Counted from the stretch's first letter, positions 2,511-8,806 are shown. The stretch: 64,000 nucleotides of DNA from Chishuiella changwenlii (GCF_900142565.1 NZ_FRBH01000009.1:62001-126000), one strand, 5' to 3'. Numbers and translations: made by a program. Notes: generated from the sequence alone by a model not told the origin.

Positions 2511-2547
2511 ATTAACTTCTAAAATTTACACGCAAAACTGCAACTCG

Positions 2548-2566
2548 ATTTAGAAGAAATTTAGAA
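2548..2566 (-). promoter_or_regulatory. Direct repeat ATTTAGAA x2, 11-bp period (candidate response-regulator site)
   Basis: ATTTAGAA occurs at 2548-2555 and again at 2559-2566. It sits 38 bp upstream of the PAP2 start codon, just upstream of a weak -7-like element (CAAAACTG on the + strand, 2533-2540). The same 18-bp core TTTAGAAGAAATTTAGAA recurs before the BamA-like gene. Two half-sites one helical turn apart are typical of OmpR/PhoB-family binding. Confidence 0.5.
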
Positions 2567-2584
2567 TACTACATTTATATAAAA

Positions 2585-2613
2585 TAAAAAAACGAGTATA
2601 AACTCGTTTTTTC
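2585..2613 (-). terminator. Intrinsic terminator of the BamA-like gene
   Basis: AACGAGT (2591-2597) pairs with ACTCGTT (2602-2608). The stem is flanked by A- and T-runs, so it can work in both directions; it directly follows the 2635-4035 gene. Confidence 0.8.
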
Positions 2614-2634
2614 ATCTACTTAAAGTACTTCGTG

Positions 2635-4035
2635 TTAAAATGCTTGTCCAATTCCAAAAAAGAATAAACCATCTTCTTTAGATTTTCCATAATCAAAATA
2701 TAATACTGTAGATTGATTCCAACCTATCCTAAAACCTGCTCCATAAGAAGATTTAATATTTTTAAAGTTTAAATCTTGCCAACGATCACGTACTGTTCCC
2801 ATATCAAAGAAAGGAGCTATTGTAAACGATAAATGTTGTTTCCATAACGTTGTTTCGGCTAAACGCGTTCTTAATTCGAAATTTGTAAACCACATCGATC
2901 TAGCTAAAAAACGATTGGCTCTATAACCTCTTAATGAAGCTTTACCACCCATTGCATTTATACTTCCTTCGGGACTCCATTGATCTTGATATTCAAAAAA
3001 TGGTGCATTTTTTCCAAAAACATTTCCTACTCCTACACGTCCTGCTAAAACTGTTCGTGGTCCAAATGGAAGTTTCTGATAGTAACGTGCTTGTATCAAT
3101 AATTTATCAAAATCAAATTGTGAACCAATAAATTTACTAGAATATTCATTCGCAATTTCAAAATAAACCCCTTTTGTTGGGTCTGGTTCAAAATCTCTTG
3201 TATCGTATATAATAGCATTTTGTATAATAGAAACCCATCCTCCATTAACTCCAGAAATTTTTCCTTGTTCAAAATCACGTCTTAAAAGAGATGTCCCATT
3301 AGGAGCTTTCGTTTTTCCAAGAACAGGATCAATTGCATCTGCTTCAGTACCTTCAAATGTTTTATAATCTAAGTGTTGTATTTCATACCCTCCCATTATT
3401 CTCCATTTTCCATTTCCTAAGGCATAATCTGCTTTTAGATTAAGCATATATTCTGTTTCTCTAAAACGATTAGATAACGCATCTGTAACAAGTGCGGCTT
3501 CACCTGGACCTCCAGGTCTTAATGTTTTTCTTGCTTTATCGTATTCTTTATAAGTTGAAAAAGTTGTGTTTTCGTCAGATGGAAGATGTAAATCTCCTAA
3601 TGTCTTCTCTGTAAGACCAAAATATAAATTTGCAGGATTCTGTTGCGCTTTAAAATCTATTTTGAAACGCCATCTCGTTCCCTTATAATAAGGTATGTCT
3701 AATGACAAAGCCAACTCTCTTGCATTAGATGTATAATAAGCTGCATTGGCTTTTAATTTCATTAAATATGGTGTGTAAGCAAATAACTCATTATCTCTTT
3801 TTCCATTCCATATTACATTGGTTCTTACTCCAAATCCAAAACCAGTTACTGGATCTGAAGAAATATCAGGTATACCTGTGATAAATGTTCCTTCTCTTTT
3901 TTTAGCAAGATCTCTATCACTCATTCGTTTAGATTTAATAAATGATAAACTGTCTTTCTTTTCTAGAATAGAATCTTGTGCTTCTATTGCAAAAGGCGCG
4001 GCCAATGTTGCGATAAATGATACTAATTTCTTCAT
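2635..4035 (-). CDS. BamA/TamA-family outer membrane beta-barrel protein
   Basis: 466 residues. A signal peptide (MKKLVSFIATLAAPFAIEAQ) precedes about 45 linker residues and a 16-strand-like barrel ending in FFFGIGQAF with the C-terminal Phe typical of outer membrane barrels. The pattern of late strands (GGKASLRGYRANRF, then a strand-rich end) matches the surface antigen D15 / Omp85 barrel, where the RGY segment lies in the inward-folded loop 6 (VRGF/Y motif). No POTRA domains fit into the short N-terminus, so it is a POTRA-less member and not BamA itself. Its exact role is unknown. It carries the same upstream repeat as the PAP2 gene. Confidence 0.85.
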   Translation of the reverse strand: MKKLVSFIATLAAPFAIEAQDSILEKKDSLSFIKSKRMSDRDLAKKREGTFITGIPDISSDPVTGFGFGVRTNVIWNGKRDNELFAYTPYLMKLKANAAYYTSNARELALSLDIPYYKGTRWRFKIDFKAQQNPANLYFGLTEKTLGDLHLPSDENTTFSTYKEYDKARKTLRPGGPGEAALVTDALSNRFRETEYMLNLKADYALGNGKWRIMGGYEIQHLDYKTFEGTEADAIDPVLGKTKAPNGTSLLRRDFEQGKISGVNGGWVSIIQNAIIYDTRDFEPDPTKGVYFEIANEYSSKFIGSQFDFDKLLIQARYYQKLPFGPRTVLAGRVGVGNVFGKNAPFFEYQDQWSPEGSINAMGGKASLRGYRANRFLARSMWFTNFELRTRLAETTLWKQHLSFTIAPFFDMGTVRDRWQDLNFKNIKSSYGAGFRIGWNQSTVLYFDYGKSKEDGLFFFGIGQAF

Positions 4036-4079
4036 ATCTTAAACTTAGAATTTTATTGTTCTGGTAAAAAAACAAACAG

Positions 4080-4098
4080 ATTTAGAAGAAATTTAGAA
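4080..4098 (-). promoter_or_regulatory. Direct repeat ATTTAGAA x2, 11-bp period (candidate response-regulator site)
   Basis: ATTTAGAA at 4080-4087 and 4091-4098, identical in spacing and core to the site at 2548-2566. It lies 45 bp before the BamA-like start codon and directly abuts a -7-like element (CAAACAGA on the + strand, 4073-4080). Confidence 0.5.
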
Positions 4099-4123
4099 TT
4101 TTAAGGGAATGTGCATAAAAAAC

Positions 4124-4158
4124 AAAATCAGCACAAACATAAAGTCTGCACTGATTTC
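4124..4158 (-). terminator. Terminator of the porin/Dabb/cupin operon
   Basis: AAATCAG near 4125 pairs with CTGATTT at 4151-4157, with further TGC/GCA pairing inside. In the minus direction a T-rich run follows. It lies 25 bp after the stop codon of the cupin gene. Confidence 0.65.
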
Positions 4159-4182
4159 CATCAATTTCAATCACTAAGATTA

Positions 4183-4677
4183 CTATTTGTTAGGTACAAA
4201 GAAGTCTTCTTTTCCTTCGGTAATTGGAATATATAATCTTACCCAAGTATTATCATCTTCATCTTCCATCTCCCAGCTATGACCTTTTCCAGAAGTATCT
4301 TCAGCTAATAAAACTGTTCCTGGTTTTACAATAAAAGTAGACCCGTCTGTTACTTTAAACTTAATACGACCTTTTAATGTAACAACATATTGTCTTCTTG
4401 GCGCTTTGTGCGTATCTTTCTCCCAGTCTTCTACCGAGTTATTCATCCAAAATGTAGAAGTATTTAAATGTTGTAGACATTTAATTGTTCCTACTTCAAA
4501 AGAAGAGCTACCATCTGGCTTACTAATTAAACGAATTGCAGGAATACTACTTTCCTCCTCTTTTACAACTTTTACAGGATCGTTTTTACCGTCATTAGCA
4601 ATTTTATCATTTGCTTTTGCATTGAATGATGCTACCATTACGATAGCAACCATCGCACTTTGTACGAATTTTTTCAT
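4183..4677 (-). CDS. Exported cupin-domain protein
   Basis: 164 residues with a signal peptide (start MKKFVQSAMVAIVMVASFNA). Residues ~65-155 read as a single small beta-barrel of the cupin type: hydrophobic strands around RRQYVVTLKGRIKFKV, then STFIVKPGTVLLAEDTSGKGHSW, where the G-x-V-L-L-A-E-D and late H resemble cupin motif 2. The full set of metal-binding histidines of motif 1 is not evident, so binding of a metal or small molecule is uncertain. It is the last gene of a three-gene operon behind an exported Dabb protein and a porin. Confidence 0.72.
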   Translation of the reverse strand: MKKFVQSAMVAIVMVASFNAKANDKIANDGKNDPVKVVKEEESSIPAIRLISKPDGSSSFEVGTIKCLQHLNTSTFWMNNSVEDWEKDTHKAPRRQYVVTLKGRIKFKVTDGSTFIVKPGTVLLAEDTSGKGHSWEMEDEDDNTWVRLYIPITEGKEDFFVPNK

Positions 4678-4710
4678 TTTAATTATAATTAAATAAATGT
4701 ATTGAATGTA

Positions 4711-5139
4711 TTATTTTTTCTTTTGATTGTATACAGTATCGTGAACTAACATTTTCACGAAATAAGGTTTGTATTTAGCTACTAAAGCTAAATGTTCTGG
4801 TAATTGACCATATTTTTCTAAATCTTCTAAAGAATCAAACTCCATAGAAGCATTATACGTATATGTTTGGTCTAGAACACTTCTTGGTGAAGAAGCTGCC
4901 GGAGTTCCATATCTTAAATTCTTTTGATAAGGCAATTGTTTTAAGCCTTCAAAAAAGTTTTGAAAATCTGCAACTTCTTGTTGAGATAAGTCTGGTTTTA
5001 GCCAAAAAACTAAATAATGAAAATAAACTGGTTTATCTTGATGTTTCTGTTTTTTAGATTGCCCAAATGCTACATTAGAGCATAAAAGCGTCATTAATCC
5101 TATTAAAGCTAAACTTCTTAATTTTTTACTTGTTGTCAT
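4711..5139 (-). CDS. Exported Dabb (stress-responsive alpha/beta barrel) domain protein
   Basis: 142 residues. An N-terminal signal peptide ends near VAFGQ. The remainder matches the dimeric alpha/beta barrel fold: YFHYLVFWLKPDLSQQEVADF at the start, a central YGTPAASSPRS segment, and the typical end strand with FDSLEDLEKYGQLPEHLALV before YKPYFVKMLVHD. Cytosolic Dabb proteins are common; an exported one is unusual. It lies 12 bp after the porin gene and 33 bp before the cupin gene, so the three are probably co-transcribed. Catalytic activity is not predictable. Confidence 0.82.
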   Translation of the reverse strand: MTTSKKLRSLALIGLMTLLCSNVAFGQSKKQKHQDKPVYFHYLVFWLKPDLSQQEVADFQNFFEGLKQLPYQKNLRYGTPAASSPRSVLDQTYTYNASMEFDSLEDLEKYGQLPEHLALVAKYKPYFVKMLVHDTVYNQKKK

Positions 5140-5151
5140 AATAATTGTTTT

Positions 5152-6480
5152 TTAACTAATATCTATTCTGTATTTTAATACAAACTGCCATTTTCTGTCT
5201 GTTGCAACAGCATTACCTCCATCGTTTGTAAAAATTGGTCTATTCTGAGCATCAAAAGTTAATCTTGATGACATTTTATTAAACAATAAAGAAACACCAG
5301 CATCATAAATAACAGCGTTGTCTTTTAAACCTTTTAAATCTGATAATTGAACAGAAGCAGCAGGTTGTAATTGCATATCATTTTTCTGTTTATTGAAATA
5401 AGGAAGAGTTCCACCAACTTGTAAGAAATAAGTATTTCCTGTCCCAATAATAGGCATAGCGTTACCAGCACCATTAAGACTTGCATTAGCAGAATTAACT
5501 CCAGTTGCTGGATTATTAGTTCCTACATAACGAACATAATTTGGTCCATAATCGTTGTGCATTGCCATTGCATAAGCACTAATAGATGTTCCTTTTTCTT
5601 TGTTAATTGGTGCATCGTAAAATACATCAACAGCAAAGTTTTTCATGTCATCATTTTTAGTCACATCTAGCTCGTCTTTATGCCACATTAAATTGTGTAT
5701 ATAATCAAAACCAGCTCCTACACTTAATACTTTCTTTTTCCCCATATAAGTACCAGAATTAAAAGGAGAAGAAATATTTTCTGTATCGAAAAAAGCATAT
5801 CTAAAATATCCTGAGAAATCTTTATTTGTTGCATTTTTACTTACTGTTGCAACATTAAGTTTAGGATCTGCCATTAAATTTGTATAAGGATCTGCTACAA
5901 CTAATCTATAGTCAAATTTTCCTATTTGTCCTTTTAAGTAAGCACTTAATTCACGAACTGTAGCATCTGTAATACCAGCATTAGATGTTGCATAAGCAGG
6001 AAGGTCATATAATAAAGTATTTAATGGTCCTGTTGTAAAACGAGATAAACCTCTCCAAGTAGAACGACCAGCACCAAACTGAATTGCATTAGAAAATTTA
6101 TATTCTCCATAAGCATCTAATAACTCAAAATTATTAACTCCTTTTTGGTTTGCATTCACATTTGTTGCTCCTCCTTGTAATACGAACGTTAATTTTTCTG
6201 TTGGCTTATAAGTCATCTTTACACGAATCCTTCTTAAAGATAAATCTGCAGATTCAGATTTATTTTGGTCGTTAATCATACTACCAGGATTAAGTTGTGT
6301 ATATCTTGCCCATGCTTCTGCATAACCACTTAAAGATATAGATCTTGTATGCTCATCGTTTAAATAATGAATTAAAGGAGGATTCCCAAAATCATTTTTC
6401 TTTTCCTGAGCATTCATTTTGTTTACTCCCAAAAAAGCAAGCAAAACAACTGTTCCGATTTTTATATATTTCTTTTTCAT
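5152..6480 (-). CDS. Outer membrane beta-barrel porin (OprP/OprO-like)
   Basis: 442 residues with a signal peptide (MKKKYIKIGTVVLLAFLGVN then KMNAQ). The body alternates polar and hydrophobic residues as in a 16-stranded porin, with early strands SLSLRRIRVKMTYKP and LTFVLQGGATNVNAN and a last strand WQFVLKYRIDIS. The layout resembles phosphate-selective porin-type proteins of Bacteroidota. It is the first gene of the operon with the Dabb and cupin genes. Its promoter has a clear TACATTTG -7 element and, 20 bp further upstream, an 11-bp-period TTAGAA direct repeat. The substrate is unknown. Confidence 0.8.
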   Translation of the reverse strand: MKKKYIKIGTVVLLAFLGVNKMNAQEKKNDFGNPPLIHYLNDEHTRSISLSGYAEAWARYTQLNPGSMINDQNKSESADLSLRRIRVKMTYKPTEKLTFVLQGGATNVNANQKGVNNFELLDAYGEYKFSNAIQFGAGRSTWRGLSRFTTGPLNTLLYDLPAYATSNAGITDATVRELSAYLKGQIGKFDYRLVVADPYTNLMADPKLNVATVSKNATNKDFSGYFRYAFFDTENISSPFNSGTYMGKKKVLSVGAGFDYIHNLMWHKDELDVTKNDDMKNFAVDVFYDAPINKEKGTSISAYAMAMHNDYGPNYVRYVGTNNPATGVNSANASLNGAGNAMPIIGTGNTYFLQVGGTLPYFNKQKNDMQLQPAASVQLSDLKGLKDNAVIYDAGVSLLFNKMSSRLTFDAQNRPIFTNDGGNAVATDRKWQFVLKYRIDIS

Positions 6481-6523
6481 AATTATTAACTGTAAAATGA
6501 ACTATTCTTCTTTTTTTACAGGA

Positions 6524-6531
6524 CAAATGTA
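6524..6531 (-). promoter_or_regulatory. -7 promoter element of the porin operon
   Basis: CAAATGTA on the + strand reads TACATTTG on the minus strand, an exact TAnnTTTG match, 43 bp before the porin start codon. Confidence 0.6.
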
Positions 6532-6550
6532 TTCTCGAAATGAAAGGGCA

Positions 6551-6571
6551 ACTATTAGAAAACTATTAGAA
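6551..6571 (-). promoter_or_regulatory. Direct repeat ACTATTAGAA x2, 11-bp period (candidate response-regulator site)
   Basis: ACTATTAGAA at 6551-6560 and 6562-6571, sharing the TTAGAA core and exact 11-bp period with the sites at 2548 and 4080. It lies 19 bp upstream of the porin -7 element, where an activator replacing or aiding the -33 contact would bind, and inside the spacer shared with the divergent two-component operon. Confidence 0.55.
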
Positions 6572-6761: not shown

Positions 6762-7439
6762 ATGAGAATAATCGTCATAGAAGACAATGAACGCGTAGCT
6801 ACATTGTTAAAAAAGGGATTAACAAGTCAAGGTTATGAAGTTGCTGTTTTTATGGATGCAGAAACAGCTTATTTCGATTTAACAAATAATCAGTACGATT
6901 TAGTAATAACAGATATTATGCTTCCGCACATGAATGGTATTAGTTTAAGCAAAAAAATAAAACACTTACATCCTGAATTGCCAATTCTAATGCTAACTGC
7001 ATTAGGTACAATTGATGAAAAAATTAATGGGTTTGATGCTGGTGCAGATGATTATATGGTGAAACCATTTGATATGAGAGAATTATATGTTCGTGTAAAA
7101 GTTATTTTGAATAGAGCTGTTACAACTCAAATAGAACACTCATTAAAGTATGATGAATTGTATATTGATTTGGATAAACAAGATGTATTTAGAAATGAGC
7201 AAAAAATAGAATTAACTCCCAAGGAATTTAAATTATTACATTTTTTAATGCAAAATCCAGAACGTGTTTTAACTCGTGATGAGATTGCAGAAAATGTTTG
7301 GGGAAACTTGTTTGATACTGGAACAAATTATATTGATGTTTACATCGCTTATTTAAGAAAGAAAATTGATAAAAACTTCGAACAAAAGCTTATTCATACA
7401 AAAGCAGGTATTGGTTTCATCTTAACTAATTTATTATGA
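6762..7439 (+). CDS. OmpR/PhoB-family response regulator
   Basis: 225 residues. The receiver domain (1-~115) has the acidic pocket E7-D8, the phosphoacceptor D51 in LVITDIMLPHMNG, T79 and K101 in DYMVKPFDMREL. The C-terminal winged helix (~130-223) reads LTPKEFKLLHFLMQNPERVL, then the recognition helix NYIDVYIAYLRKKID. It resembles the Bacteroidota RprY/CusR type. The stop overlaps the kinase start by four bases (ATGA), so the two are translationally coupled. The divergent porin operon and two further envelope genes share a possible binding site, so this regulator probably acts on them. Confidence 0.93.
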   Translation: MRIIVIEDNERVATLLKKGLTSQGYEVAVFMDAETAYFDLTNNQYDLVITDIMLPHMNGISLSKKIKHLHPELPILMLTALGTIDEKINGFDAGADDYMVKPFDMRELYVRVKVILNRAVTTQIEHSLKYDELYIDLDKQDVFRNEQKIELTPKEFKLLHFLMQNPERVLTRDEIAENVWGNLFDTGTNYIDVYIAYLRKKIDKNFEQKLIHTKAGIGFILTNLL

Positions 7440-8806
7440 AACTAGCCATAAGAACAGCACTAACCTATAGTATACTTACCGCAGGAATTTTTCTCGTTTT
7501 TGCTTATGCAATTGTTTTGGTTTCTGAAAAAAATCAAAACGATGAATTTTTCGATCGCTTAGGATATAAAATTACGTGGCGATCTGAGTTATATTTTGAA
7601 GCTGGAATGGATGAAAGTCATATACGTTTTTTACATCTTAGAAATAAGCAAATATTAAACGAAGCTGATGTGAGTATTTATAATTCTGATAAACAACTTA
7701 TTTTCTCAGACACACCCATCCCTTTAGGTAATAACTACAATTGGGTTTGGAAAAAAATAGAAAAAAAAGATCGTGTAAAATGGTACGGAGACAATCAGCA
7801 ATATATGGCCGTTACTTATGTGTATAATAACCAAAAGTTTTATATCATAGGACGAGCAAAAGATGTTACTGGAGAATTTTACATGAACCGACTAAAACAT
7901 AATATAAAAATTATTTACATTGTTTCTGTTTTAGTAATTTTTGGAATTGGATTTATTTTCTCCTACTATACTTTGAAACCGCTTAAAGAAATTATCAATC
8001 AAATTAGAGACATTTCAGAACATCGACTTCATCACCGTTTACCTCTTCCTAAAACGAAAGACGAAATTTATGAGTTGTCACATACCTTTAATTCAACTTT
8101 TAATCGATTAGAAAAATCATTTAATACGCATAAAAACTTTGTTTCTACAATTTCTCATGAGTTTAGAACACCTTTATCAGCATTAATTGCCGAATTGCAA
8201 TTGGCAAAAGAATTAAACGTTACGTTAGACGATTATAAACAATCCATAGATAATGCGCTTTCTGATGCACAGAAAGCAACAGATTTATCAACGGCTCTAT
8301 TAGATTTGGCACGAGCAAATTACGATATATCTCAAGTTAGTTTTATAAAATTAAGATTAGATGAGGTATTAATGGATGCTAAACTGAACATTTTAGGAAA
8401 GAATAATCATTATAAAATTAGTGTGAATTACGACAACCTAGAAATGAATGAAATGCCCGATGATTTCGAATTTATTGGTAATCCTTACTTACTTTATATT
8501 GCATTTACAAACTTAATAGAAAATGCATGTAAATATTCTGAAGACGAATTATGTACAGTTTTGCTTTCTGCAACAAAAGAACATTTTATTATTCAGTTTT
8601 CTGATAATGGAATTGGTATACCAGAAGATGAGCAAGAAAAAATATTCGATTTATTTTTTAGAGGAAAGAATAAGAATTTTAATGAAGGAAATGGAATTGG
8701 TTTAAGTATTGTTCAGCAAATTGTCCTTTTACACAAAGGTATTTTAGAATTAGAATCTGAAGTAAATAAAGGAACTACATTTACGATTCGTTTAGATAGA
8801 AAATAG
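7436..8806 (+). CDS. Membrane sensor histidine kinase (HAMP, HisKA, HATPase)
   Basis: 456 residues. Transmembrane segments at ~8-30 and ~158-180 enclose a ~125-residue periplasmic sensor. A HAMP linker follows (TLKPLKEIINQIRDISEHRL). The dimerisation domain has the phosphoacceptor H241 in STISHEFRTPLSAL. The ATPase domain shows the N-box (NLIENACKYS), G1 (FSDNGIGIP), F-box (IFDLFFRG) and G2 (GNGIGLSIVQQI). It is the partner of the response regulator. The sensor domain has no recognisable ligand-binding family; the neighbouring genes suggest an envelope signal. Confidence 0.93.
   Translation: MKLAIRTALTYSILTAGIFLVFAYAIVLVSEKNQNDEFFDRLGYKITWRSELYFEAGMDESHIRFLHLRNKQILNEADVSIYNSDKQLIFSDTPIPLGNNYNWVWKKIEKKDRVKWYGDNQQYMAVTYVYNNQKFYIIGRAKDVTGEFYMNRLKHNIKIIYIVSVLVIFGIGFIFSYYTLKPLKEIINQIRDISEHRLHHRLPLPKTKDEIYELSHTFNSTFNRLEKSFNTHKNFVSTISHEFRTPLSALIAELQLAKELNVTLDDYKQSIDNALSDAQKATDLSTALLDLARANYDISQVSFIKLRLDEVLMDAKLNILGKNNHYKISVNYDNLEMNEMPDDFEFIGNPYLLYIAFTNLIENACKYSEDELCTVLLSATKEHFIIQFSDNGIGIPEDEQEKIFDLFFRGKNKNFNEGNGIGLSIVQQIVLLHKGILELESEVNKGTTFTIRLDRK

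Follow-up and report, generated by a model that had tools for sequence, protein, structure and literature searches.

The question raised by this locus is which regulator reads a direct repeat that lies before three of its envelope transcription units. The window, a stretch of 64 kb (C12:62001-126000) from the 3.44-Mb, 23-contig genome of Chishuiella changwenlii, is AT-rich (29% GC) and was originally predicted to hold a local envelope regulon, in which one OmpR-type regulator encoded nearby would recognize three TTAGAA pairs with an 11-bp period. A motif scan confirmed the pairs themselves: exact TTAGAA-N5-TTAGAA occurs at 2550, 4082 and 6555, before minus-strand genes whose start codons are 38, 45 and about 70 bp away, as had been proposed. 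There is no other exact match across the 64 kb, again in agreement with the prediction; 2 more pairs appear when one mismatch is allowed, which is the background level. Three exact pairs exceed chance, the mean expectation in the window being 0.115 under an order-1 and 0.30 under an order-3 Markov model, and at least three were reached in 0 of 200 and 1 of 200 runs, respectively. The genome-wide scan suggested with the prediction gave 10 exact matches versus 6 for the reversed control, and the 5 that lie beyond the window and contig C7 are internal to open reading frames.

We found that the sites before the PAP2 gene (2548-2566, minus strand) and the Omp85 gene (4080-4098, minus strand) are identical 19-bp boxes, TTCTAAATTTCTTCTAAAT when read along transcription, with the core TTTAGAAGAAATTTAGAA common to both. 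The exact 18-mer has four copies in the genome, namely those at 2549 and 4081 of the window and those in two promoters on C7, one of a two-component pair (RR7/HK7) and the other of another PAP2 gene; the boxes at these two C7 promoters are identical to that of the window PAP2. A TauE gene divergent on C7 is preceded by a copy with one mismatch. All five of these RR7-type boxes are followed by N11-TTT(G/A). At the PAP2 promoter the tetramer is TTTG (2533-2536, minus strand), 11 nt past the box and the putative end of the -7 element, for which the Bacteroidota consensus is TAnnTTTG (PMC9723704); at the Omp85 promoter it is TTTA (4065-4068, minus strand), also 11 nt past the box, and TTTG takes its place in two relatives (L240 and L292). 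Both genes are on the minus strand: the first (1728-2510) encodes a PAP2 phosphatase (PAP2w; Pfam PF01569) that is LpxE-like but below the curated cut-off (NF007159 weak), the second (2635-4035) an Omp85-superfamily outer membrane protein with DUF5982 (PF01103, PF19412; 511.8 bits against NF047779, cut-off 200). Own-genome sites with two mismatches were considered as extra targets and rejected, as they lack N11-TTTG and equal the reversed control in number.

RR7 (C7:39267-39941) is an OmpR-family regulator of 224 aa, in which a domain search found the receiver and Trans_reg_C domains, and HK7 is its kinase partner. Its recognition region, DFADMLDNHDFVYAHVKNLKKKL, is nearly invariant among 54 relatives, and its own promoter carries the box, with 6-bp direct repeats separated by 5 bp, as do the RR7 promoters of L120, L122 and L249. 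We surveyed 396 genomes of the order with a strict box pattern, and for RR7 orthologs at E <= 1e-75. The pattern matched 56 times, in 32 genomes, and its reversed control about 6 times; orthologs were present in 54 genomes, including 29 of the 32 with a box versus 25 of the 364 others (Fisher p = 8e-26). Of the 56 strict boxes, 50 lie within 5 kb of an RR7 ortholog. Those that do not are the two window sites, which are in trans, one before a PAP2-EptA operon (G209, locus L325), and three (G042:C19, G017 and G291) that have no TTTG at +11 and are probably chance matches. The 25 RR7-bearing genomes, out of 54, in which the strict pattern found no box probably have more degenerate boxes, as do those that were examined (for example G033). 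No box was found in the promoters of PAP2 orthologs from congeners without RR7, or in those of 15 PAP2w-like genes from genomes other than G000 and G021.

Searching public genomes with the Omp85 of the window returned 78 loci, about 18 of which have the order RR7-HK7-(box-N11-TTTG)-Omp85, with the same box as in the window; they come from Pedobacter, Rhabdobacter, Shiella, Cecembia, Chitinophagaceae and others. Among the 78 loci, Omp85 genes lacking a nearby RR7 relative, mostly from Flavobacterium, have no box, while two loci near contig ends (L240 and L245) have the box and no RR7 within the stretch compared. The spacing of 11 nt from box to TTTG is kept in nearly all box-bearing promoters; several relatives depart from it before RR7, where the -7 TTTG has moved by one or TTTA stands in its place. 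In a Chryseobacterium metagenome-assembled genome (L292) one cluster comprises box-RR7-HK7, box-DgkA-PAP2, box-Omp85, box-TauE, box-PepSY and a PAP2w ortholog, its Omp85 and PAP2 being 91% and 76% identical to those of the window. The Sphingobacterium alimentarium locus (L240) holds PAP2-EptA, DgkA, PAP2, box-Omp85, box-PepSY, box-TauE, box-PepSY and PAP2w. Orthologs of the window PAP2 are also located in the RR7 cluster of L120 and, in G021, behind TauE within the RR7 locus. Given these arrangements, the simplest reading of the window's PAP2 and Omp85 genes is that they are half of an RR7 cluster that has been displaced.

The site before the porin operon has another form. Along transcription it reads TTCTAATAGTTTTCTAATAGTT; positions 6550-6571 (minus strand) are a perfect tandem of AACTATTAGAA x2, and these 11-bp repeats, TTCTAATAGTT, correspond to the last two of the three repeats of relatives. 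The operon, on the minus strand, encodes a porin (5152-6480; ExtI-like, below cut-off, NF040900 weak), a Dabb-domain protein (4711-5139; PF07876) and a protein without a Pfam match (4183-4677) which, following the original prediction, we take to be cupin-like; their order is conserved, and porin orthologs (about 75% identical) occur in 50 family members. Divergent from it, on the plus strand, lie the OmpR-family response regulator RRw (6762-7439; PF00072 and PF00486) and its partner HKw (7436-8806), a histidine kinase by domain and family profile search that fails the PorY-family model NF052314 (91.4 bits, cut-off 350). This arrangement is kept in the loci compared. In 30 of 30 orthologous porin promoters divergent from RRw, TTTCTAA repeats at an 11-bp period, usually three, stand exactly 23 nt from TAATTTTG. 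The window promoter keeps the last two repeats, its last TTCTAA being 23 nt before TACATTTG (6524-6531, minus strand), a putative -7 element at the same place as TAATTTTG in the orthologs. Among 29 RRw orthologs the recognition region, GNHFDTGTNYIDVYIAYLRKKI, is nearly invariant. The recurrence of one box in 30 of 30 orthologous divergent loci indicates that RRw, encoded next to the porin operon, very probably controls it. The claim that this regulator recognizes all three sites was supported for the porin site and not supported for those of PAP2 and Omp85.

Taken by box and promoter sequence, the window very likely contains target promoters of two OmpR-family systems, PAP2 and Omp85 answering to RR7 and the porin operon to RRw. 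The idea that these are direct-repeat sites of the OmpR type was itself borne out, as judged from the 11-bp repeats, the fixed -7 spacing and the conservation. A single local envelope regulon, with the adjacent RRw binding every site, would explain why the three share a half-site core and an 11-bp period, lie physically close and all precede genes for envelope proteins. Nevertheless, we regard it as highly improbable. Although the TTCTAA core at an 11-bp period is common to both boxes, their conserved flanks and linker bases differ, as does the promoter geometry (11 nt to TTT(G/A) for the RR7-type box versus 23 nt to the -7 element for the porin box), and the flanks and spacing conserved with RRw orthologs do not extend to all three sites. 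At PAP2 and Omp85 both features track RR7/HK7, which speaks against the shared RRw regulon of the original prediction. When scored with position weight matrices (PWMs) trained on other genomes, the two boxes lie about 30 bits apart in either direction, the RR7 matrix being partly circular in that most of its training boxes were gathered with the strict pattern; the Omp85 promoters, gathered by gene and not by motif, are an independent set and have the same box and spacing. The PAP2 box scores 29.9 with the RR7 matrix, and the PAP2 and Omp85 boxes score -1.4 with the RRw matrix, whose training range is 24-31. Moreover, neither Omp85 nor PAP2w was detected in flanks of about 1.5 kb on each side of the RRw-porin locus in 29 relatives, whereas both adjoin RR7 in other genomes.

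Overlapping regulons, in which PAP2 and Omp85 answer mainly to RR7 while RRw or RR7 paralogs cross-bind, and in which the clustering integrates two signals, seem to us unlikely. The PmrB-QseB link of E. coli offers a parallel, and the two units are adjacent in the source genome; since both boxes share TTCTAA at the same period, some cross-binding between RRw and RR7 is possible. However, the conserved flanks are specific to each family, and the DNA-recognition regions of the two regulators differ. We give hardly any weight to the reading that no dedicated regulator is involved and that the repeats arose by chance as AT-rich words or belong to the core promoter. A genome of this composition and the overlap of the box with the -33 region would favour it, but only 0.1-0.3 pairs are expected in the window, the association of box and RR7 is too strong (the Fisher p value above), and the fixed spacing is conserved across genera.

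From the identity, spacing, conservation and co-occurrence of the boxes we infer how the two systems, with control of PAP2 and Omp85 by RR7 and of the porin operon by RRw, might bind, activate and respond. Phosphorylated RR7 most likely binds two TTCWAAAT half-sites with an 11-bp period as a head-to-tail dimer. The bound box would cover the -33 region in the manner of a class II activator, and RR7 would recruit RNA polymerase to the -7 element, TTTG being exactly 11 nt downstream of the box. By this means RR7 would regulate itself together with genes for envelope lipids, PAP2 and TauE in the source genome and, in relatives, EptA, DgkA, an OpgB/LtaS-like sulfatase, PepSY-like and Omp85 genes. 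An envelope signal would thus lead to remodelling of lipid A and the outer membrane, with DgkA possibly recycling diacylglycerol. RRw/HKw is probably a local activator of the porin operon, acting just upstream of a normal promoter.

Since EptA, DgkA and PAP2 genes are apparently driven by the box as well, the RR7 regulon resembles, by gene content, that of PmrAB and would serve to remodel lipid A; in the source genome it is split. EptA of L240 passes the equivalog NF007160 (735 bits, cut-off 561) and is far below every MCR family cut-off, and DgkA was assigned by PF01219. HK7 scores 408 bits with the PorY-family model, above its cut-off of 350, which recalls the PorX/PorY system of type IX secretion. 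RR7 has an OmpR-type DNA-binding domain, which PorX is not known to have. The best NCBIfam model for RRw is that of the heavy-metal regulators cztR/silR/copR (TIGR01387), with 210.8 bits, below the cut-off of 279.2; unlike theirs, the RRw locus has no metal efflux gene that we could see, and its target is the porin/Dabb/cupin operon. Closest to RR7 is PmrA/PmrB (BasRS) of Enterobacteria and Acinetobacter. It too pairs an OmpR-family regulator with 6-bp direct repeats spaced 5 bp apart (TTCTAA-N5-TTCTAA here, TTTAAG-N5-TTTAAG for the A. baumannii PmrA box; PMC10927774), and one such box lies before the regulator's own gene; EptA, DgkA and PAP2 genes are linked to the RR7 box in relatives. PmrA (NF007928) is also the best NCBIfam model for RR7, although at 165 bits RR7 is far under its cut-off of 330, and HK7 belongs to the PorY family and not to PmrB. 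The RR7 system further differs in its TTCWAAAT half-site, in the Bacteroidota TAnnTTTG promoter and in the Omp85, TauE and PepSY-like genes as extra outputs. Neighbourhoods of mcr genes (mcr-1-pap2 and mcr-3-dgkA; eptA is co-regulated with dgkA; PMC7559476) likewise link a phosphoethanolamine lipid A transferase with PAP2 and DgkA, but EptA here passes NF007160 and none of the MCR family models.

We found no description of the RR7 regulon or its motif in the open-access literature, and few binding sites of response regulators have, to our knowledge, been established in Bacteroidota. We lean towards the view that this is an apparently undescribed, apparently horizontally spread Bacteroidota regulon, in which an OmpR-type regulator and its PorY-type kinase turn on lipid A remodelling (EptA, DgkA, PAP2) and a dedicated Omp85-superfamily protein via a box set at constant spacing from the -7 element, that it evolved independently of PmrAB, and that half of it has here moved beside an unrelated regulator and is served in trans. 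Many Flavobacteriia are intrinsically polymyxin-resistant. Since the box keeps a precise distance to the promoter and goes with one regulator family and with lipid A genes, a simple genome scan should predict the regulon and a single deletion should test it. The locus also shows that nearness to a regulator says little about which one reads a site.

The window Omp85 and porin have no orthologs among the 13 congeners searched, and RR7 relatives within the genus reach only 46-52% identity; we treated the latter as paralogs because the genomes concerned show no box excess. Together, these observations suggest that the genes were acquired. C7 was considered as a plasmid and rejected, since its ends do not overlap and it carries chromosomal housekeeping-type genes. 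It begins with an EptA fragment 96% identical to a copy on C9, and thus probably ends at repeats. These two, at the start of C7 and on C9, are the genome's own EptA copies, and the contig end cuts the link between box and EptA.

Upstream of the porin operon that diverges from the window's OmpR-family regulator gene, the loci of relatives (L192-L220) carry three 11-bp repeats, whereas the window has two (6550-6571), retaining just the two proximal ones. About 45 bp upstream of the repeats, these relatives also share a conserved TACAAAGGTAT, which on the opposite strand reads as the -7-like TACCTTTG and from which the divergent regulator gene is likely transcribed; this motif is not obvious at the corresponding position in the window.

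Most Flavobacterium Omp85 genes that lack a neighbouring RR7, the OmpR-family regulator encoded on contig C7 in our genome, have in common a different conserved stretch, approximately TTCYAAATCTTCTTTTAATGCTACATTYAAGAAA, some 200 bp upstream (L251-L254, L256, L262 and L267). This stretch is possibly the site of another regulator, or a structured leader.

The RR7 cluster of Sphingobacterium alimentarium includes a serine hydrolase gene with an RR7-type box (L240:2013-3242), whose product is classed as beta-lactamase/PBP4-like on the basis of weak model matches. In several relatives (L120, L121, L123 and L124) an OpgB/LtaS-like sulfatase-family transferase gene lies 3′ of the genes for RR7 and its PorY-family kinase, HK7, in some cases with a box upstream.

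The C. changwenlii genome holds two EptA-like copies, 96% identical across their shared part: one at the start of C7, truncated by the contig start (L321:1-975), and one on contig C9, apparently split into two ORFs and preceded by a PAP2 gene (L323:2265-3895). The PAP2-EptA pair may be duplicated, which may explain why the contig carrying the RR7 locus breaks off there.
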